In this document: piece by piece, positions 16,208-25,245 of the stretch
Numbering within the stretch: position 1 is the first letter of the stretch
Layout: the number at the start of each line of letters is the position of its first letter
Origin: Hydrogenimonas thermophila
GTDB lineage: Bacteria; Campylobacterota; Campylobacteria; Campylobacterales; Hydrogenimonadaceae
Direction of reading: 5' to 3'
NCBI RefSeq assembly: GCF_900115615.1
Contig: NZ_FOXB01000005.1
Span: 1-64,000, forward strand
Length of the DNA: 64,000 nucleotides
The notes under the pieces: generated by a model
Told to the model about the DNA's origin: nothing
What the model saw: the letters and a program-made list of their open reading frames with translations, nothing else
Databases searched by the model: none
Translations under genes and position numbers: made by a program

Positions 16208-17170
16208 TTACTGGAACTGTTCTCTGTTAAAAATATCAATTTTTCCAAACTTTAATCCAATTTGAAACATAATACGTCCATGTGTAGCAAAATTGGATGA
16301 TTCTCTAAAAATTAACCCTGGTTCAATACGATAAAAAATCCAGTTTTTTTCAAAATAATGCATAAATGACAATCCTGTATAGTAATATTGTAATTTAAAT
16401 GTAGAGTCTGAGTCCCCACTGCTATATATTGAAAAAATATAACTCAATCCACTCTTATTTCCAATATATTGATCTAAAACCATAGAGTTAACGATCTCAT
16501 TTTTATTGTTTAAATCTTCTATATATCTGTAAAAATTTGGAAAAGAGAGTTTTAAGTATGGGTTTATTACTCTAATTGGATTAAATCCAATTATATTATC
16601 TACCCCCGCATCTAAATATAATCTTATTTTTTCATATAGTGTCCATTCCCAGTTTGCTGGAAAGTAAAGCTTCTTTTTAAGTTTTATAGTTAGATATGGA
16701 TCAGGAGATAGTGAGCCAAATTTTATACCTGCCCCATAAGTAATTGATGTATATTTAGTATCAAGAGTTTGAAGTTGAAGTCCTATAATATAATCATTAC
16801 TATTTGCAGTGTCTAAAACTGTTTCACTGTTAGATTGATCTTTTGAGATTGTATCTTTAAAATCTTCCAAAATCAGATTTAGCCTTTTTTGTGTTTTAGG
16901 CAGATGTACACGATATTTTATATTGAAACGATATTGGAATGATTGCCCTGATTCCATGTATGAATCAAGTGAAGTTTGCAAGTAAGAACCATTTTTTACT
17001 TTTATATCATTATAGTTATTACCAAAAAATGAGTCTATGGTTCTTGAAGTTTCATAAATTAAATTACTAACTTTTTTATGTAGTATATCTATAGAACTAT
17101 TTGTATCATTTGCCAATGCTGCAGACAAACATATAATTATACTCAACACTTTAATAAGTTGAAAGTTCAT
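16208..17170 (-). CDS. Secreted or outer-membrane beta-rich protein of unknown function
   Basis: 320 residues. An N-terminal signal peptide (hydrophobic residues 6-19, cleavage near SAALAND) is followed by a helical/charged part (to about 60) and then alternating polar/hydrophobic strands with many aromatics (for example YRFNIKYRVHLP, WEWTLYEKIRLYLDAGVD, YYYTGLSFMHYF, GRIMFQIGLKFGK). This looks like a small outer-membrane beta-barrel; the pattern 'FGSLSPDPYLTIKLKKKLYF' also fits. No family named with confidence. It is convergent with the AI-2E transporter (9 bases apart), and no partner gene is adjacent. Confidence 0.7.
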   Translation of the reverse strand: MNFQLIKVLSIIICLSAALANDTNSSIDILHKKVSNLIYETSRTIDSFFGNNYNDIKVKNGSYLQTSLDSYMESGQSFQYRFNIKYRVHLPKTQKRLNLILEDFKDTISKDQSNSETVLDTANSNDYIIGLQLQTLDTKYTSITYGAGIKFGSLSPDPYLTIKLKKKLYFPANWEWTLYEKIRLYLDAGVDNIIGFNPIRVINPYLKLSFPNFYRYIEDLNNKNEIVNSMVLDQYIGNKSGLSYIFSIYSSGDSDSTFKLQYYYTGLSFMHYFEKNWIFYRIEPGLIFRESSNFATHGRIMFQIGLKFGKIDIFNREQFQ

Positions 17171-17395: not shown

Positions 17396-17465
17396 GAGAC
17401 TAAAGTCCCATCCCCAAACAAGGGGTCGAGACTTTCTCACAGAGAGTGCAAGCACAAGAGTCTCG
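17396..17465 (+). repeat. Palindromic intergenic repeat element, copy A
   Basis: Begins GACTAAAGTCCCATCCCC, then AAACAAGGGG, then TCGAGACTT. It contains short dyads: GACT/AGTC, CCCC/GGGG, and CGAGACT (17427-17433) with AGTCTCG (17459-17465). A copy at 22959-22997 matches it over about 38 bases with roughly six differences and one gap. Copy A lies 23 bases beyond the stop of the activator gene. Confidence 0.75.
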
Positions 17466-17488: not shown

Positions 17489-18280
17489 TCAGGTACTTAC
17501 CCATGTTCCCATTAGTGCTGCTCCTAACGCAGTGGTAATTTGAGGGTAGCTTGGAATTGCCAATTCTCGTCCAAGTTCATCTTCAATGGCGGCAACAAGT
17601 CCAGCATTTAGTGCTGGTCCGCCATCGAAGTAGATAATGTCATTCAAGCCTACTTTTTTAGTAAGTCGTATGATGCGTTTTGCTATAGAGAAGTGTATGC
17701 CTGCTACAATATCCTCTTTTGAGTGTTCATTACCCAACAGTCCTATAATTTCAGATTCAGCAAAGACAGCACAAGTACTATTTATAGATAGTGGTGTTCC
17801 ATTTGCTTTAAAGTGATACTCTCCAAGCTCTTCTACATCAATTTCAAGTTTGGCGGCAGCTACATCTAAAAATTTACCTGTACCAGCGGCACAGCGATCA
17901 TTCATAGCAAAGTTTACAACATTTCCATTTTCATCTAAACTGATAGCTTTAGAGTCTTGACCTCCTATGTTTATGATAGTTCTTACTTTTCCAAACTTTT
18001 CACCAGCTTTTTTAGCACCAATGGCATTTGCCGTTATTTCGCTTATTGTCTCATCTGCCTCTTTAAAGAGTTTACGACCATACCCTGTAGCTACAATATA
18101 GGCAATATCATCTCTTTCTATTCCAATATCTTTAACTAACTGTTCAAGACTCTCTTTTGCATATTTGTAAAACATACTTCCGCTTCCGGAAACTTTTTTA
18201 CCTACAATCTCTTGATTGTCATCTATAATGACTATCTTTATGGCAGTAGAACCTATATCGATACCAGCATAATAAGACAT
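17489..18280 (-). CDS. BcrA/BadF/HgdC-type ATP-dependent activator (archerase) of a 2-hydroxyacyl-CoA dehydratase-like protein
   Basis: 263 residues of the ASKHA ATPase fold. Signatures: AGIDIGSTAIKIVI (phosphate 1), ATGYGRKLF, NIGGQDSKAI (phosphate 2), FDGGPALN (adenosine). The two cysteines that bind the single 4Fe-4S cluster between the subunits of the homodimer are present in MNDRCAAGTGKF and STCAVFAESE. The family couples ATP hydrolysis to injecting a very low-potential electron into a partner protein. Its stop-start is fused to the partner gene (shared base at 18280), the usual pairing. The protein is complete, and length is normal for a stand-alone HgdC/DccR-type activator. Confidence 0.93.
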   Translation of the reverse strand: MSYYAGIDIGSTAIKIVIIDDNQEIVGKKVSGSGSMFYKYAKESLEQLVKDIGIERDDIAYIVATGYGRKLFKEADETISEITANAIGAKKAGEKFGKVRTIINIGGQDSKAISLDENGNVVNFAMNDRCAAGTGKFLDVAAAKLEIDVEELGEYHFKANGTPLSINSTCAVFAESEIIGLLGNEHSKEDIVAGIHFSIAKRIIRLTKKVGLNDIIYFDGGPALNAGLVAAIEDELGRELAIPSYPQITTALGAALMGTWVST

Positions 18281-19587
18281 TAAACACTCCCTCTTTTACG
18301 TACTTTCATTGACTCTATAAAAGCTTCTATTCGTGTAGATAGTTGCCCGCCTTGACCAGGACTGTAATCTGTTTCGACATATAGCATAGGAATACCAATC
18401 TTTTCCATCTCTTGTTGAATAGATCGATGCTCCATCTCATAAACTTGGCATCCTGCAAATGATTGATAGACCACACCATCAATGTTATATGCCTCTACCA
18501 ACTCTTTGAGTCGCCTTTTTCTATCATCATTTCTTGTAAAAATAGGGCAGGTGCATCCTTTTAGGTATCTGTCTGCAATAGCATCGACCATATCGTACAA
18601 AAACCACTCATCTACAGAGACCATATCGTTAAATAGGCGATTTGCAGAACAGCTTTCGTCAGCTACAATTATTCCGTCTGCTTGCTCTATCATCAATGGA
18701 AGTTTCAAGTTTGGAAAGACTGGAGGTGAGCCTGTATAGAGTATTCTAGGTGATCTTCTGCCTGCAGCATTAAATCCATCTTTTGCCCTTTGTTCAACCT
18801 CTTCGCAAACTTTGATGGTCATCTCTGTCCAACGCTCAATATCATCAAAAAAGAATGCATTGGTAATAAGAAATATATCTTTCCCAAGAATCGGTACTGA
18901 TTCAAGTTTTCTAAGCTCATTTAAACGGTGATAAGCTATTTGAGCTTTACCTACTTTGACTATTGCCTCTTTAACTCTTTTTCTTGTAAGTTTTTGTCCA
19001 AGCTCTTTAGATAGATCTTTTGTAAATTTTCTAACAGAGCGTCGCCAATACTCTCTGCTCTCTTCACTCTCTTTTACCCTTGGAAACTCCATATGGTAAA
19101 CATCATATCCCATCTCCTCAACGGTAGAGATAGATTTTGTTTTTTGATCACAAGTAGTCGGATGAACAATTAAATCTATTCTATCTCTAAAAGGAAAACT
19201 CTTTTGTTGAAGCATTCCAAGTGTTGCTTTTACAAGCGAACATGATTTAGCCGGCATAAATTCACCACCGTTTTGCTCATCTGTATGGTGACCGTTGCAA
19301 AGGCGCAGAGGAACAGCATCTAACGCATAGATGATTTCATAAGGAATTTGAATGCAAAGCGTTCCTATGACAGGTTTATTTACAACCTCTTTGTTATCTT
19401 GACAATAGACTTTATCAAACAGATCATAAAAGTAGTTCATAGACTCTAAAGGATCTGCAAAACCATACTTGATCTCATCTAACACTTTAACAGCTTCCAT
19501 CGCCTTGTGACGTTTGTGACGGGCTTTAAAGTCTTCTATCTTTCTTGCTCTTTTTTGAGACTTTTTAGGTGTATCATTTTTTTGCAT
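18280..19587 (-). CDS. 2-hydroxyacyl-CoA dehydratase D-component family protein, probably double-cubane-cluster type
   Basis: 435 residues of the HGD-D family. Family blocks: GTLCIQIPYEIIYALDAVPL with RLCNGHH, AKSCSLVKATLG, HPTTCDQK, ADESCSANRLF, GCTCP, and VVYQSFAGCQVYEMEH. Cysteines that look conserved fall in two groups of at least three: C97, C116, C146 in the N-lobe and C313, C345/C347, C380 in the C-lobe. Six would be needed for two linked cubanes, as in double-cubane-cluster proteins, while true dehydratase subunits need three. No second dehydratase subunit gene is adjacent, which also favours the single-subunit type. The upstream frame starts at 19659, but ATG 19587 has AAGGAG seven bases ahead. 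It overlaps the preceding gene by 14 bases. Confidence 0.85.
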   Translation of the reverse strand: MQKNDTPKKSQKRARKIEDFKARHKRHKAMEAVKVLDEIKYGFADPLESMNYFYDLFDKVYCQDNKEVVNKPVIGTLCIQIPYEIIYALDAVPLRLCNGHHTDEQNGGEFMPAKSCSLVKATLGMLQQKSFPFRDRIDLIVHPTTCDQKTKSISTVEEMGYDVYHMEFPRVKESEESREYWRRSVRKFTKDLSKELGQKLTRKRVKEAIVKVGKAQIAYHRLNELRKLESVPILGKDIFLITNAFFFDDIERWTEMTIKVCEEVEQRAKDGFNAAGRRSPRILYTGSPPVFPNLKLPLMIEQADGIIVADESCSANRLFNDMVSVDEWFLYDMVDAIADRYLKGCTCPIFTRNDDRKRRLKELVEAYNIDGVVYQSFAGCQVYEMEHRSIQQEMEKIGIPMLYVETDYSPGQGGQLSTRIEAFIESMKVRKRGSV

Positions 19588-20554
19588 CAAACTCTCCTTC
19601 AAAACCCATACGTTTTGCAAACCCACCTTTTGTAGAGCGAAACAGTGCCATATTGACAATGTCTAAACGCAGGGCATCCTCTTCTGGACAAGCCGCTACA
19701 CACTTTAAGCAGAGTATGCAGTCATCTCGTAAAATATTTGTACTCTCTACATCATCTGCAATATCTTTTATCTGCATATCGCAGACTCTGTAACAGTCTC
19801 CGCACTTTGTGCATTTGTCTCCTGACTTTTTAAGTTTTAAAATTGCCAAAGGGCTTAAAATGTAGTGCATTGCACTCATTGGACAAAAGAAGCAGAAGAA
19901 ACGTTTTTTTAGAAATGAACCTACAAAGAAGAGTATGGTAAATGCAATGCCAAATGCTGTTAAAAATATGGCGGTATTGCTTGAAAAGTCTATGCTCCAT
20001 TGGCTGAAATCGCCGGTAAACATTGGTGTTATGAGTCTTCCGGGACACATTTTACAAAATGCACCTCTCCACTCACCATCTAAAATACCAGATCCAAGAA
20101 GAAGTGGAAAAATCAGGACAATAAAGAGAAAAATATATTTGATCTTTTTTAAATGTCTATATGTATTTTCGCTGTAACTGCTGTATGGAATATGTAATCT
20201 TTTTCTTATTGCTGTTATCCAATCTTGCAAAGTTCCTAACGGGCAGACATAACCGCACCAAGCTTTGTTAAAGATAATAAACCATACTAAAAAGGTTAAA
20301 AAAGCTGTTAAAACACCGATACTTGCAAAACTAAAGAGTCTCTCATATGGTCTTGCAAGTTGGTGTTGCAGTGGCATAAAGTAGCACATTCCACCTTTCT
20401 CTTCATTATATCCACAAGAAAATATAGGAAGTTCCCTTCCAAAATCTATGGCAAGATAGCCGCCATAGACAAATAGAATAAATGTTAAAAGCTGTATCCA
20501 AAATCTCAGTTTACGAATATCTAACTTTTGAATCTTCTCATACAGTTTACTCAT
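19574..20554 (-). CDS. Membrane poly-ferredoxin, NapH/CcoG-like, with two C-terminal 4Fe-4S clusters
   Basis: 326 residues. Four to five membrane helices (about 20-37, 75-97, 140-158, 195-213) carry Cys-rich membrane-face motifs WCGYVCPLG (100, 104), FCKMCPG (167, 170) and FCFFCPMS (221, 224), typical of Fer4_5 proteins such as NapH, NosR and CcoG. A cytoplasmic 2x[4Fe-4S] ferredoxin follows: CTKCGDCYRVC (248-258) and CILCLKCVAACP (279-289). It probably passes electrons from the membrane pool to a cytoplasmic acceptor. It overlaps the larger poly-ferredoxin gene upstream by 8 bases and the HGD-D gene downstream by 14, so the three are translated together. Confidence 0.9.
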   Translation of the reverse strand: MSKLYEKIQKLDIRKLRFWIQLLTFILFVYGGYLAIDFGRELPIFSCGYNEEKGGMCYFMPLQHQLARPYERLFSFASIGVLTAFLTFLVWFIIFNKAWCGYVCPLGTLQDWITAIRKRLHIPYSSYSENTYRHLKKIKYIFLFIVLIFPLLLGSGILDGEWRGAFCKMCPGRLITPMFTGDFSQWSIDFSSNTAIFLTAFGIAFTILFFVGSFLKKRFFCFFCPMSAMHYILSPLAILKLKKSGDKCTKCGDCYRVCDMQIKDIADDVESTNILRDDCILCLKCVAACPEEDALRLDIVNMALFRSTKGGFAKRMGFEGEFDAKK

Positions 20555-22853
20555 CTAAAATCACCTCTTTAAAAGGTTTGTGAGTTCTATATCTATAGAT
20601 TGCAACTCCTCCTACAAGGGCTATGAGTAAAATTATTGCTATAATTAGTGCATAACCTTTAGATTGGTACTCACTTCTTGAAGGCATAAACTGACTTGTT
20701 TGCGTTATGACATACTCTCTACCGTCACTGCTTTTATAGTATGCCGCTATAATGTAGTTTTCTCTAAAATATCTGTTTACTCTTTTACCATTGTCAAAGT
20801 GATCTTTAATATGTCTAAATGAGACAGTACCGTCACTACCAGTTACTAAATGCTTTTGCCAGCCAAGCTCTGTGGTTATTGTAACTTCAGCACCTTTTAT
20901 AGGTTTTCCATCTTTGACTACTTTAAAAGTGATTTTGTCACCGCTTTGCTCTCTATAGTATGGTTTCTCATCTTTTGATTTTAAGCGAATAATGTCAAAT
21001 GGTATTTCTGTTACTGTTTCAGGTTTTAATTTATTTAAAGATTCTCTGTTTGAGCCATGTCTGAAATGCTTGTATTCATACTTTGCTATACGGATATATC
21101 TCTTTTCTTTTTGCAGATAGTAAGCTTTGTAGTATCCATTTTCAGACATTTTTAGTTCAACTGTTGCACACCCGTTATATTTTGGTTTTACTCTTTTTAG
21201 GCTGTTGTTACTGTCTACTGTATAGAATGTACCTTTAACATTGGCAACACAAGCAGGTTGTTGTAGAGTACCGCTTACCAAATAGAGTTTTTTTAAATAT
21301 AAATTTCCTCTTCGATGCCCCATACTTTTCATTGAAGCTTTTGGATTTTTTACCGGCAAACGATCAGTAAACCAGACAATATCTTTTATAGAGACTTTAA
21401 TTTTTGGTATTTCTATGTTTTGTCCCGGTACCATACCAACTGATCTGCTGTTATGCATTCCACCTCTGTGGTGGGCTTTTCTGCCGTATGTATCTATCAC
21501 ATAGTTACGGTAAAGATTTACACCTATAAAAAAGATAATGAGCAGACTTGCAAATGGATAAGCCAAAATCTTTCTCTTTTTAGGTGCATCTATGTATGCC
21601 ATTCGCTTGTAAAGAATATAAAATGCCCAAATAACGGCTATCCACCGAAACATATGAAAGAACATCAACCACTTGTCACCACGCTTTGCAAGAGGATCTA
21701 CATCTACATCCATTCCAAATCCCCACGCAAATCCCTCAACAATCCTAGCAGAGTTTGATGTAAAGAAAAACTCTAAAGCGTGGGCCATAGAAGCTAAAAT
21801 AAAGAGTGGTGCAAAGGCGTAACCAAGTGTGTAAAAGACTGTGTTAAAATCTTTTTTCAAAATTTTGGATGCAATCCACATTCCAATAACAGCAGATGCT
21901 ACGGTAAAGAGTGTTGCATAAAGAAAAGCAAAAAGTCCAATAGGATCGATTGATCCAAAGTTTATGAACCCTTTAAAAAACTCTGCTGTTTTAACCCATA
22001 TCATCTGATCGCCTATGTTGCTTCTACCAAGTCCATGGTGAAATGCCATAGATATTGGTATAGCGGCTAAAATAAGTATAAATACCCAAACTTCTGCTTT
22101 TAGAGTTTTAAACTTTTGGTAGATGGCATTGCCCGGTTTTACAAACTTAAAGCCTATAGCTTCGCAAGAGTGTGAACACTCCATACAAAGAGTACAGTCA
22201 TTCATAGAGCTCTTTTTATTGAAATTAAAAGGGCTTAAACCGTAAGGGCAAGATTTTGCACAATCAAAAGTTTTACACTCCGAGCAGGCTTTATTGTAAG
22301 ATCTAAACTGTGTAAAAGAGAGTTTGCTATAGCCTCTTAGTGCCGTACCGATCGGGCAGATATATTTGCAATAACTCATATCTTTGTAAAGATAGTAGAT
22401 GGTAAAAGCAACAATCGTCATTACTAAAAAGAGTGTTGCAGTTCCTAAAGGTGTACGGTAAACTCCAGGGAAAATGTAGTAAACACCCCACCATCCAAGA
22501 AAGAGCAGCATAACCCCAATAAAACGGTTCTGCATCCACTTTGGCATACTCTTTTTCAAACCGATTTTTGTAATGTATCTGCCAAGAAATCCGTGTGGAC
22601 AGATACCGCAAAAAATGCGTCCAAAGGTTGGAAGGGTAGTTACAATAAAAAGTGGCCAAAATATTCCCCAAAATAGAGCTGTTGTGAAGATATTCTCTTT
22701 AGAAGGGTTGTAAAATCCCATAAATATGGCATAGAAAAAGAGAAATGCAACCAATATGCGTAGAGTAAAAACAAACTTTTTATTCTTAAAAATAAAACGG
22801 AAAAAACGGTTTTTAAATAGATCGTTGCCATCACGTTTTATGAAGTTGACCAT
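20547..22853 (-). CDS. Large membrane Fe-S protein (NosR/NapH-like) with a periplasmic Ig-like/DUF4198-like domain
   Basis: 768 residues in an unusual arrangement. The N-terminal third has membrane helices and poly-ferredoxin motifs FCGICPHG (82, 85), CKYICPIG (162, 166), CSECKTFDCAKSCPYG (190-202) and CTLCMECSHSCEAIG (220-230). A second set of helices (about 253-270, 305-328, 340-362, 396-417, 430-447) carries membrane-proximal His (H272, H273, H358, H400) that could bind heme or metal. A long periplasmic region (about 460-730) ends in a KPIKGAEVTITTE.. beta-sandwich like carboxypeptidase-regulatory/DUF4198 domains, then a last helix (735-752) and a short tail. Such domains accompany nickel/cobalt uptake. 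Joined to the smaller poly-ferredoxin by overlap. No named family covers the full length. Confidence 0.85.
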   Translation of the reverse strand: MVNFIKRDGNDLFKNRFFRFIFKNKKFVFTLRILVAFLFFYAIFMGFYNPSKENIFTTALFWGIFWPLFIVTTLPTFGRIFCGICPHGFLGRYITKIGLKKSMPKWMQNRFIGVMLLFLGWWGVYYIFPGVYRTPLGTATLFLVMTIVAFTIYYLYKDMSYCKYICPIGTALRGYSKLSFTQFRSYNKACSECKTFDCAKSCPYGLSPFNFNKKSSMNDCTLCMECSHSCEAIGFKFVKPGNAIYQKFKTLKAEVWVFILILAAIPISMAFHHGLGRSNIGDQMIWVKTAEFFKGFINFGSIDPIGLFAFLYATLFTVASAVIGMWIASKILKKDFNTVFYTLGYAFAPLFILASMAHALEFFFTSNSARIVEGFAWGFGMDVDVDPLAKRGDKWLMFFHMFRWIAVIWAFYILYKRMAYIDAPKKRKILAYPFASLLIIFFIGVNLYRNYVIDTYGRKAHHRGGMHNSRSVGMVPGQNIEIPKIKVSIKDIVWFTDRLPVKNPKASMKSMGHRRGNLYLKKLYLVSGTLQQPACVANVKGTFYTVDSNNSLKRVKPKYNGCATVELKMSENGYYKAYYLQKEKRYIRIAKYEYKHFRHGSNRESLNKLKPETVTEIPFDIIRLKSKDEKPYYREQSGDKITFKVVKDGKPIKGAEVTITTELGWQKHLVTGSDGTVSFRHIKDHFDNGKRVNRYFRENYIIAAYYKSSDGREYVITQTSQFMPSRSEYQSKGYALIIAIILLIALVGGVAIYRYRTHKPFKEVILDE

Positions 22854-22881
22854 AGCAGACCCTCTTTTTTAAGTTTTTACA

Positions 22882-22998
22882 CCGAGACAGAAGTCTCGGC
22901 AATTATCAGGGGTTGGGACTTTAAGTCCCATAAATTGAGTTCTTTGAAAAATATAATAGGACTAAAGTCCTATCCCCGAAAATAGGGTTTGAGACTTA
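22882..22998 (+). repeat. Palindromic intergenic repeat element, double copy B
   Basis: Fills the gap between the TonB receptor and the 768-residue protein gene. The left half contains CCGAGAC-AGAA-GTCTCGG (22882-22899, perfect 7-base stem) and TGGGACTT-T-AAGTCCCA (22914-22930). The right half (22959-22997) reads GACTAAAGTCC-TATCCCC..TAGGG..GAGACTT and matches copy A at 17398-17434. The left half resembles the reverse complement of copy A (AGAA.GTCTCG..GGGG.TGGGACTTTA), so B is a head-to-head pair. Its right end overlaps the receptor stop codon. Confidence 0.75.
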
Positions 22999-25176
22999 AA
23001 AGCGATATTTCAAACCTGCATAAAAGACTCTACCCGGATCAACTGTGATGCTTGCATCTTCTGCATCGAATTTGCCATCTTTATTTTTATCACTATATAG
23101 ATATACTGTTCTGTAGTATTGCTTGTCTAAAATATTATCTATTTTTACAAAGAATTCGAGATTTTTTATAGGCTTATAATCTACTCTCATATTTACTTTT
23201 CCATAGCCAGGCATTGTTATAAGGTTTGTCTCATCTGCATAGTACTTACTTTGAGCATAAAGTTCTGTCATCAAGTTCCATTTAGGTAAAAATTTATAAT
23301 TTACAATTAAATCAATTTTATGATGAGGTACTCTTGGAAGTTGGTTGCCTGTAATGTCATAGGTAATATTTTCTCCATTATCATCATCTTTTCCGTCATT
23401 ATCAGCATCAGCATATATATCAACAGTAAAAGGCAAGTGTGAAGTATAATAAGCATCAAGATATGTATAAGCGATACTGTAAGAAAATTTTTCTTTAGCT
23501 TTCCCTTTTAAACTTAGTTCAAAACCTCTGTTTCTTGCATCTCCTACATTATCATAAAAGTCACTATCCCAATTATATGTTCCATCAACTTTACTTATAA
23601 TATCTTTTGTATCTGTAACAAAAATAGAAGCTTCATATTCTGCTTTAAGAAATGTGGTTCCTTTCATTCCAACTTCATAGGTAATAGTTTTTTCTGTTTT
23701 TAAATCAAAATTATTCTCAGCACTTCCCCAACCTAATTCACCATTGTATAACTCTTTAATTCTTGGGTTTCTAAATCCTGTTGAGATATTTGCATATAGT
23801 GTGTTATTTTTATTTATATTATATGCTCCTCCAGCTCTATATGTTGTATTTCTATAAGTTTTAGTTTCATCAAAACTATCATATTCCCAAGAAGATGAGC
23901 GACTGCTAAATGAATATGCATTTTCTTCATATTTATATCTATTTATGTCGTATCTTAAGTTAATTGTTGTTGTAAAATTATTAGTAATTTTATATTTAGT
24001 TTCTCCGTAAACTCCATAATTATTTTCAGTTAGTAATTCATCTTCCCATTCGCCAGCATATTGATCATATCCTCTGCTATCAGTATAATCTTTTTTTGTA
24101 TAAGAGTAATCTTCTGATTTCCTTTTCCCTAAATCTACACCTATCATATATGCTAATTTATCTTTTTTTCCTCTAAATTCAGTTTTTACGCCATACTGTT
24201 TTATATCTTCATTATTATCTTTAGCATAGTAGTCATCATTTCCATCTCCAGTGTTATCATACGGAGTAGATTCATAATCATATAAATCTTTATAGTAGTA
24301 TGAATTAATTTTTAAGTTTGCCCCATTGTCAAAATCTTTACTATAAGTAATGAAATACTTATCTAAATCTGTATAATAGTCATGATTCCAAGGCCAATCT
24401 CCATCTGTACCAGTTGGATTTGTTTCTGCTGCAGTTACACCGGTAACACTTCCTCTGTCACTCTCTTCATATTTTCTTGTAATATCAACTCCTACAGTAA
24501 TATCACTCATATCATCGATGTAGTATTGAAATTTACCATTGACAGATTTCGTCTCATTTTCAGTTCTATCCCAATATCCACCATCATATCTATAGTTTGC
24601 TCCAATATTAAAAGAGTAGGCCTCTGTCCCTTTATATACATTTGCTTTAATGTTTTTGTACTCTTCGCTACCTGCTTCAGCTTTTACTTCAAAGCCATTT
24701 TTATCTTTAATTTTTTTAGTAGTAATAATTACTGCTCCAGCAAGAGCATTTTGTCCATATAGATAGCTAGCACTTCCCTTAATAACTTTAATCGATTCAA
24801 TTTCATCAAGATTGAATTTTACTTTTCCTCCATTTTGAAGTACAGGAACACCGTCTATAACTATTGCAACTCCAGTATCTTCCCACATAAACTCTTGTTG
24901 TGCTATACCTCTAATGTGGATTTCAACAATGTCACCATTCCTAAGATCCGCAGTAATTCCCGGAACTGTCTGTAAAAGTTCATTTATATTTTTAGGATCA
25001 ATCTTTTCTATAGTCTCTTCATCTATGATATTTACAGTAGAACTTTCGGTTCTTTTGTCGGTTGCTATATCTTCAATAGTTGAAGACTCTACCCGAATGG
25101 TATCTAACGAGATCTCTTCAGCCGCTGCAATAGAAGAAAATAGTACAAGTCCTGCCAGTAGATAGCTTTTTTTCAT
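22996..25176 (-). CDS. TonB-dependent outer-membrane receptor
   Basis: 726 residues: signal peptide (MKKSYLLAGLVLFSSIAAAEE), a TonB-box-like stretch ISLDTIRVESS directly after it, a plug domain (about 35-150, with INELLQTVPGI, IHIRGIAQQEF, VAIVIDGVPV, IKVIKGSASYLYGQNALAGAVII) and a 22-strand-type barrel ending GLKYRF. It imports a ligand (metal chelate, corrinoid or similar) with TonB energy. Two surface-loop stretches look like calcium-binding Asp loops: DADNDGKDDDNGEN and DKNKDGKFDAED (about residue 696). The frame opens at 25218, but ATG 25176 has GGAG seven bases ahead. It is the first gene of the minus-strand module with the Fe-S proteins. Confidence 0.95.
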   Translation of the reverse strand: MKKSYLLAGLVLFSSIAAAEEISLDTIRVESSTIEDIATDKRTESSTVNIIDEETIEKIDPKNINELLQTVPGITADLRNGDIVEIHIRGIAQQEFMWEDTGVAIVIDGVPVLQNGGKVKFNLDEIESIKVIKGSASYLYGQNALAGAVIITTKKIKDKNGFEVKAEAGSEEYKNIKANVYKGTEAYSFNIGANYRYDGGYWDRTENETKSVNGKFQYYIDDMSDITVGVDITRKYEESDRGSVTGVTAAETNPTGTDGDWPWNHDYYTDLDKYFITYSKDFDNGANLKINSYYYKDLYDYESTPYDNTGDGNDDYYAKDNNEDIKQYGVKTEFRGKKDKLAYMIGVDLGKRKSEDYSYTKKDYTDSRGYDQYAGEWEDELLTENNYGVYGETKYKITNNFTTTINLRYDINRYKYEENAYSFSSRSSSWEYDSFDETKTYRNTTYRAGGAYNINKNNTLYANISTGFRNPRIKELYNGELGWGSAENNFDLKTEKTITYEVGMKGTTFLKAEYEASIFVTDTKDIISKVDGTYNWDSDFYDNVGDARNRGFELSLKGKAKEKFSYSIAYTYLDAYYTSHLPFTVDIYADADNDGKDDDNGENITYDITGNQLPRVPHHKIDLIVNYKFLPKWNLMTELYAQSKYYADETNLITMPGYGKVNMRVDYKPIKNLEFFVKIDNILDKQYYRTVYLYSDKNKDGKFDAEDASITVDPGRVFYAGLKYRF

Positions 25177-25225
25177 AACTTTACTCCGTGAATTAAACTC
25201 AAAGTGAAATATTAACATTGCACTG

Positions 25226-25245
25226 TTAAGTAAAGGTTAACTTAA
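25226..25245. promoter_or_regulatory. Inverted repeat upstream of the TonB receptor gene, possible operator
   Basis: TTAAGT (25226-25231) and ACTTAA (25240-25245), eight bases apart, about 50 bases upstream of the receptor start and in the divergent region shared with the VanZ-like gene. A TAATAT-like -10 for the receptor lies just downstream on the minus strand. It does not match the Fur-box consensus closely. Regulator unknown. Confidence 0.4.

Follow-up and report, generated by a model that had tools for sequence, protein, structure and literature searches.

The 64,000-nt stretch of Hydrogenimonas thermophila DNA analysed here (contig NZ_FOXB01000005.1, positions 1 to 64,000; hereafter the window) carries five minus-strand genes at 17489-25176, which encode, in order, a TonB-dependent receptor (22996-25176), a 768-residue membrane iron-sulfur (Fe-S) protein (FeS768, 20547-22853), a 326-residue membrane Fe-S protein (FeS326, 19574-20554), a 435-residue HGD-D protein of the double-cubane (DCCP) family (18280-19587) and a 263-residue BcrA/HgdC-type activator ATPase (17489-18280). 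An earlier reading made from the sequence alone (the sequence-only reading) had given the same order and proposed that the genes form one functional unit, and both points are borne out. The last four genes overlap by 8, 14 and 1 nt, as that reading had noted, which suggests coupled translation; the receptor gene lies 142 bp upstream of the FeS768 gene. The five genes constitute a conserved module, which occurs mainly in sulfur- and hydrogen-oxidising Campylobacterota and is conserved far beyond chance.

Conservation of the module

In a sample of 298 Campylobacterota genomes, the HGD-D homologues split into group A (57-80% identity; 16 genomes, including that of the window) and group B (33% identity or less). 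The receptor, FeS326, the HGD-D protein and at least the C-terminal part of FeS768 are encoded together in all 17 group A loci besides that of the window, and the ATPase gene adjoins the HGD-D gene in group A loci apart from two second-copy loci (L046 and L048). The FeS326 profile, at an E value below 1e-160, matches exactly the 16 group A genomes and none of the 282 others, and in two genomes of the same genus the group A HGD-D protein and FeS326 are both missing. These co-occurrence counts carry no correction for shared ancestry, and the 16 module genomes are spread over five families (f1, f4, f7, f8 and f9).

A wider scan of 84,980 species genomes yielded 69 more HGD-D loci, which partly lie on the same contigs as the first 17 group A loci, so that the two counts overlap. 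They belong mostly to Sulfurimonas, Sulfurovum, Sulfuricurvum, Hydrogenimonas, Nitratifractor and metagenome-assembled genomes of Arcobacteraceae. Only loci with enough flanking DNA entered the partner rates, and the denominators differ accordingly: FeS326 is adjacent to the HGD-D protein in 59/59 testable loci and the ATPase in 62/65, a DUF4198-like domain is present in 51/55, a receptor lies near the HGD-D gene in 43/46 eligible loci, and a DsbD_2-family membrane protein is encoded in 40/44. The receptor is thus missing within range in only three of the 46, in line with the dedicated receptor that the sequence-only reading had proposed. An RND pump (20/52), ExbB (18/42) and TonB (18/42) are optional partners. 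Three loci (L103, L111 and L116) fell out of these counts through an overlap filter, and their HGD-D gene is present. Apparent gene fusions in L102, L111 and L116, such as ATPase plus DsbD_2, were rejected as artefacts of longest-ORF calling in high-GC DNA.

The loci labelled Gammaproteobacteria, Rhodocyclaceae and Bryobacterales have a GC content of 61-65% and are therefore unlikely to be misbinned Campylobacterota; an origin outside Campylobacterota is less certain for L055, L106 and L088 (44-46% GC). Five loci (L080, L082, L089, L092 and L113) hold two receptor/DUF/FeS326 sets beside one HGD-D gene. Across the loci, the identity of the HGD-D protein follows that of the ATPase closely (r = 0.95) and that of the receptor loosely (r = 0.31). 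Copies of the HGD-D gene without a neighbouring ATPase gene were seen at L046, L048, L088, L094 and L095. The genomes of at least L046 and L048 also possess a complete locus, which makes these two second copies, and one ATPase may therefore serve two HGD-D proteins.

Double-cubane protein, activator and membrane Fe-S proteins

The HGD-D protein belongs to a new subfamily of double-cubane proteins, with the cluster itself predicted from conserved cysteines. It scores 366.8 bits against the double-cubane model NF040772 (cut-off 350), and its top PDB matches are the DCCP structures 7yyl and 6eno. Intersection with DCCP and BzdN, the two proteins for which an [8Fe-9S] cluster is proven, gives six likely ligand cysteines common to both (C78, C116, C146, C313, C347 and C380), which are conserved in 17/17 sequences of the subfamily. 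The sequence-only reading had named five of these and missed C78; of its other candidates, C97 is kept in DCCPs but absent in BzdN, and C345 is specific to the subfamily, being found, like C62, in all 17 sequences of group A and in none of the 14 of group B. In the tree, group A forms a monophyletic clade (support 0.945), with DCCP plus group B as its sister (0.98), and the outgroup HadC lacks two of the six cluster cysteines. Based on the model score, the six cysteines and the tree, the protein is not a subunit of a two-subunit dehydratase, as the sequence-only reading had also suggested. The whole genome contains one HGD-D gene (PF06050) and, adjacent to it, one BcrAD_BadFG gene (PF01869). 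There is thus no second dehydratase subunit, whereas 2-hydroxyacyl-CoA dehydratases (HgdAB/HadBC) have two paralogous HGD-D subunits. Against the models of class I benzoyl-CoA reductase, the scores are 74 for bzdN (cut-off 454) and 173 for bzdQ (cut-off 380), with a single ATPase in the genome. Group B HGD-D/ATPase pairs, which are closer to DCCP, were seen in many Campylobacterota (L018-L031), with no module partner within these 4-kb loci.

The ATPase scores 245.8 bits against TIGR00241 (cut-off 125.4), matches PDB entries 4eht, 1hux and 7yyl_E, and carries the motifs NDRCAAGTG and NSTCAVFAESE. Among 15 sequences, GIDIGSTAIK is kept in 13, NDRCAAGTGKF in 15 and N.TCAVFAESE in 11.

FeS768 is a polyferredoxin fused to a periplasmic domain of metal-binding type, as judged from Fer4_5 and weak DUF4198 matches, transmembrane (TM) and positive-inside analysis and an invariant cysteine pattern. 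The predicted topology comprises cytoplasmic ferredoxin motifs, nine TM helices, the periplasmic domain and a last, C-terminal TM helix. The N-terminal part (aa 1-440; 21534-22853) contains cytoplasmic CX2CP/CX3CP motifs, an 8-Cys ferredoxin and the nine predicted helices. Two of its histidines, H273 and H358, are invariant and lie where TM helices reach the periplasm. In the structural model (pLDDT 75), the periplasmic domain (about aa 480-733; 20655-21416) has the DUF4198/Zcp fold, a known metal-binding fold: Foldseek matched it to the Zn-, Co- and Cu-bound Zcp structures 9mhl, 9mhn and 9mhm (E about 1e-8, probability 1.00) and, secondly, to Ni-bound IsDUF4198, 9gcb (E 2e-5, probability 1.00). 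This is the domain that the sequence-only reading had described as periplasmic and Ig-like. DUF4198 binds Ni with a Kd of 18 nM (PMC12537917). A His-rich linker precedes the domain, with a His-rich stretch there in many relatives, and three Sulfurovum-type FeS768 proteins carry CxxC in its place. Furthermore, several relatives have a whole NosL domain inserted before the periplasmic domain (49-65 bits, cut-off 24). NosL matches in line with FeS768 occur in 14/69 loci, and separate NosL genes also lie nearby in some; NosL is a Cu(I) chaperone family (PMC7558416).

FeS326 is a NapH/MauN-like membrane protein that combines an 8-Cys ferredoxin and a pair of cytoplasmic CXnCP motifs with four additional cysteines (47, 57, 167 and 170). 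None of its 16 cysteines varies, even among cousins of 35% identity. The four extra cysteines are predicted on the periplasmic face and are absent from the NapH and CcoG-type proteins of the same genome. They could form a periplasmic-side cluster that completes an Fe-S wire across the membrane.

Receptors, cousin operons and upstream elements

The receptor of the window (726 aa) has a signal peptide, and both its plug (PF07715) and its barrel (PF00593) score over the cut-off. Orthologous receptors without a group A HGD-D protein occur in seven sampled genomes, all of which were inspected. Three such cousin loci (L118-L120) encode the receptor, a DUF4198-like periplasmic protein and a FeS326-like protein, that of L120 being found by profile search, and the two readable cases also include DsbD_2. 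In four cousin genomes and a second G287 locus (L121-L125), the partner of the receptor is the N-terminal half of FeS768, which bears Fe-S motifs, and RND, ExbBD and TonB are variably present; this half exists as a separate protein of 456-496 aa in genomes where it accompanies the receptor alone. The question raised by the sequence-only reading, whether the receptor is conserved apart from the other four genes, thus has a divided answer: it does occur without the HGD-D/ATPase pair, but in the cases examined it always stands beside membrane Fe-S proteins of the system. Because the cousin operons lack HGD-D/ATPase, the pair seems to be an addition to an otherwise working unit.

A DsbD_2 gene is present in 17/17 extended loci, in relatives at the position of the gap between the receptor and FeS768 genes. 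The window genome gave no DsbD_2 match anywhere, and DsbD_2 was therefore rejected as an essential part. An RND permease gene stands beside the module at L035, L037, L057, L062-L064, L110, L122, L124 and other loci, usually without adaptor or TolC genes. Considered as possible heavy-metal pumps, the two RND proteins tested (L037 and L055) score closest to multidrug-type permeases, though below every NCBIfam cut-off. PepSY gave no match in the module proteins of the window.

Upstream of the receptor gene, about 50-65 nt from its start, lies the direct repeat GTTAACCTTTACTTAACA (25224-25241, minus strand), which fits the motif TTAAC-N6-TTAAC (an 11-bp direct repeat); no other site in the genome matches the motif perfectly. 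The motif precedes 49 of 79 Campylobacterota module receptors (40/69 after dereplication), as compared with a shuffle expectation of 0.28 and a maximum of 2 in 200 shuffles. OmpR-type regulator genes near 13 loci make two-component control plausible, and the repeat is probably a response-regulator operator, with a regulator of OmpR type as the candidate.

In related loci, 12 matches to a structured leader RNA were found upstream of module receptors, among them L046:5297-5359, L046:2780-2844, L081:3623-3684, L095:5898-5960, L094:517-579, L094:4206-4268, L100:4332-4393, L087:3779-3842, L044:3045-3106, L048:4997-5059 and L086:4016-4075. It consists of a stem around a conserved AGTTTGGCGACT hairpin, with two-sided compensatory changes at 6 of 14 pairs in nine sequences, and Rfam gave no match for it at L095. 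It is a candidate new cis-regulatory RNA. The leader occurs in 5/298 genomes, one of which (G162) has no group A HGD-D protein, and there it leads an operon of a receptor and the FeS768 N-terminal part. In the same genome (L141:1300-8557), a PepSY_TM reductase (80.8 bits) and a TonB receptor were seen divergent from the leader RNA with its own TonB receptor and FeS768 N-terminal part.

The 142-bp gap between the receptor and FeS768 genes (22854-22995, minus strand) contains hairpins, one of which is terminator-like (22974-22955). GACTTTAGTC palindromes lie at 17398 and 22960, in the gaps on both sides of the last four genes, accompanied by other GAGAC/GTCTC-type hairpins, and a small intergenic repeat is possible. 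Downstream of the ATPase gene, positions 16208-17170 encode a 320-aa secreted-looking protein without a Pfam or NCBIfam match.

Proposed function and relation to known systems

A possible function for the module is reductive uptake of a metal chelate, with the HGD-D/ATPase pair donating low-potential electrons to a membrane Fe-S wire. This proposal is tentative, although preferred to the alternatives, and retains the metal chelate that the sequence-only reading had offered as one of two substrates. The substrate class, the direction of the electrons and the roles of HGD-D/ATPase, RND and DsbD_2 are all inferred. The TonB receptor would carry the metal chelate into the periplasm, where the membrane-anchored DUF4198/Zcp-like domain may take the metal, with help, in relatives, from segments of NosL, His-rich or CxxC type. 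FeS326 together with FeS768 could conduct electrons across the inner membrane, so that the metal or its complex is reduced and the metal released. The HGD-D/ATPase pair may act as a soluble ATP-driven booster, in which ATP hydrolysis pushes single electrons onto the double-cubane cluster, and the cluster would hand these very-low-potential electrons to the ferredoxin domains on the cytoplasmic side of the membrane proteins. The RND pump, where present, may export the emptied chelator, and DsbD_2, where present, may move metal or thiol electrons through the inner membrane. ATP-driven reduction at a double-cubane cluster is established for DCCP (cited in PMC11971306). For the uptake half, operons combining a TonB receptor, DUF4198 and a PepSY metal reductase provide precedents (PMC3751524, PMC7190382, PMC8238504, PMC12004947), and CrtA/CrpH combines a TonB copper receptor with an adjacent membrane reductase (PMC12914433, PMC13038864).

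Reductive uptake is favoured by the exact co-occurrence of FeS326 and the HGD-D protein, their constant adjacency, the metal-binding fold and the NosL insertions, and is also supported by the tracking of HGD-D and ATPase identities while the receptor varies. Outward electron flow agrees better with the existence of cousin operons, with a metal-binding domain that faces the periplasm, with the additional cysteines predicted on that side and with the loci that have one HGD-D/ATPase pair per two receptor/Fe-S sets, although these do not amount to proof. Copper is slightly favoured as the metal over iron or nickel/cobalt. A very low potential is needed to reduce some chelates, for example ferric catecholates (near -750 mV), but not to reduce Cu(II).

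Several points weigh against this proposal. Ordinary cytoplasmic reductants suffice for Cu(II), and copper alone therefore does not explain a double-cubane pump. The HGD-D protein is never seen without FeS326, which also fits FeS326 as its electron donor. The structure predicted for FeS326 has low confidence (pLDDT 69.5) and found no counterpart in the PDB, and the periplasmic domain of FeS768 scores 23.8 bits against DUF4198 (PF10670), below the gathering cut-off of 34, so that its family membership rests on the fold. Among 85 receptors, the upstream DNA showed no enrichment of Fur boxes, and iron/Fur regulation gained no support. N2O reductase, which uses much copper, has no clear link to the module: NosZ occurs in 8/16 module genomes versus 80/282 others and is absent from the window genome.

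On the other hand, the receptor might import a compound destined for the cytoplasm, where the double-cubane protein would be the terminal reductase, fed by the two membrane Fe-S proteins. This alternative, rather unlikely but a serious rival and the strongest of those considered, would account for FeS326 beside every testable HGD-D gene, and in known HGD-D/benzoyl-CoA reductase systems the cubane protein is itself the enzyme; the known DCCP reduces small molecules in vitro (PMC11971306). However, receptor, DUF4198 domain, FeS326-like protein and DsbD_2 form a complete operon without HGD-D, the metal-binding domain sits in the periplasm, and the loci share no recognisable inner-membrane importer, unless it is DsbD_2, which is missing from the window genome. 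The quinol that NapH-type proteins normally use is, moreover, too oxidising to serve a double-cubane protein. The membrane Fe-S proteins had been suggested as the electron source of the HGD-D protein in the sequence-only reading; this is now doubtful, for the constant FeS326 adjacency fits it, but the cousin operons and periplasmic features fit the reverse direction better.

Less probable still is copper handling for cuproenzymes, with a CcoG-like cupric reductase, NosL-type delivery and only a side role, such as repair, for HGD-D/ATPase. FeS768 has the layout of the cupric reductase CcoG (PMC7558416), and the NosL insertions and the receptor-reductase pairs of CrtA/CrpH type (PMC12914433, PMC13038864) point the same way, but FeS768 lacks the CcoG C-terminal family match, NosL is absent from the window and most loci, there is no clear link to N2O reductase, and the near-strict conservation of HGD-D/ATPase would be left unexplained. 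It is very improbable that the module takes up corrinoids, the other substrate offered by the sequence-only reading, and couples this to the reductive step from cob(II)alamin to cob(I)alamin. Cob(I)alamin formation needs a very low potential, BcrA-like ATPases or similar activators act on corrinoid proteins, and a second receptor class has a moderate TonB-B12 score (237 bits, L095). All receptor scores nevertheless fall well under the B12-receptor cut-off of 600 bits (103 bits for the window receptor against the BtuB-type model TIGR01779, cut-off 599.7), seven loci contain no cobalamin riboswitch, and no corrinoid genes recur in the neighbourhoods. A chance juxtaposition of an HGD-D/ATPase pair with a receptor operon, conceivable because group B pairs stand alone in many Campylobacterota, is refuted by a gene order conserved in several Campylobacterota families and in high-GC Gammaproteobacteria, Rhodocyclaceae and Bryobacterales, by the overlapping frames and by the near-perfect co-occurrence.

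If reductive uptake is correct, the module would, through its near-invariant partnership, give an enzyme class of unknown natural function a testable role, possibly metal acquisition with outward electron flow. It would also represent an ATP-boosted Fe-S branch of reductive metal uptake, which is known so far with flavin, haem or PepSY reductases. The hosts live in vents, sediments and groundwater, where sulfide can lock up trace metals. With somewhat more reserve, the module may be a new uptake class, in which ATP pays for more energetic electrons rather than for substrate transport: the ATPase would charge the [8Fe-9S] protein, and this would drive a trans-membrane Fe-S wire that strips the metal from its receptor-imported chelate in the periplasm. 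That would give a DCCP-type double-cubane protein a physiological role for the first time. The parts are of known kinds and their combination appears undescribed, as the sequence-only reading had supposed: neither the combination nor any paper linking double-cubane proteins with TonB or Campylobacter was found in the literature searched, which mostly did not cover subscription papers.

Several known systems share features with the module and differ from it in others. DCCP and its reductase from Carboxydothermus hydrogenoformans (6eno, 7yyl) likewise comprise a single HGD-D gene, six cluster cysteines and an adjacent ATPase, whereas the module HGD-D protein shares about 30% identity with DCCP, forms a separate clade, has two extra invariant cysteines (C62 and C345) and is tied to a receptor and membrane Fe-S proteins, a linkage that group B lacks in Campylobacterota. 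Class I benzoyl-CoA reductase (BzdN) and the 2-hydroxyacyl-CoA dehydratases belong to the same fold family, and BzdN also has a double-cubane cluster, but these are multi-subunit CoA enzymes, in contrast to the one HGD-D gene of the module, which has no CoA-enzyme neighbours. NapH/MauN share with FeS326 the TM core, two CX2-3CP motifs and a C-terminal 8-Cys ferredoxin; FeS326 differs in its four extra invariant periplasmic-side cysteines and in scoring 85.5 bits against the NapH model TIGR02163 (cut-off 213), on which FeS768 reaches 25.7 and the true NapH of the genome 335.7. The cupric reductase CcoG/FixG/RdxA is, like FeS768, a membrane polyferredoxin with a C-terminal periplasmic Ig-like domain, whereas FeS768 has more TM helices, a domain of DUF4198/Zcp type and no match to the FixG C-terminal domain (FixG_C). 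The CrtA/CrpH copper operon of Bordetella likewise places a TonB receptor by a membrane metal reductase, sometimes with ExbBD-TonB; CrpH is PepSY haem-based, and that operon contains neither Fe-S proteins nor HGD-D/ATPase. Finally, the flavin-linked TonB/DUF4198/DUF2271/PepSY metal-reduction operons of Caulobacter, Alteromonas and Shewanella also combine a receptor, a periplasmic DUF4198 protein and an inner-membrane electron carrier, whereas the carrier of the module is a NapH-like Fe-S protein instead of a PepSY/flavin one, and an ATP-driven double-cubane pair is added.

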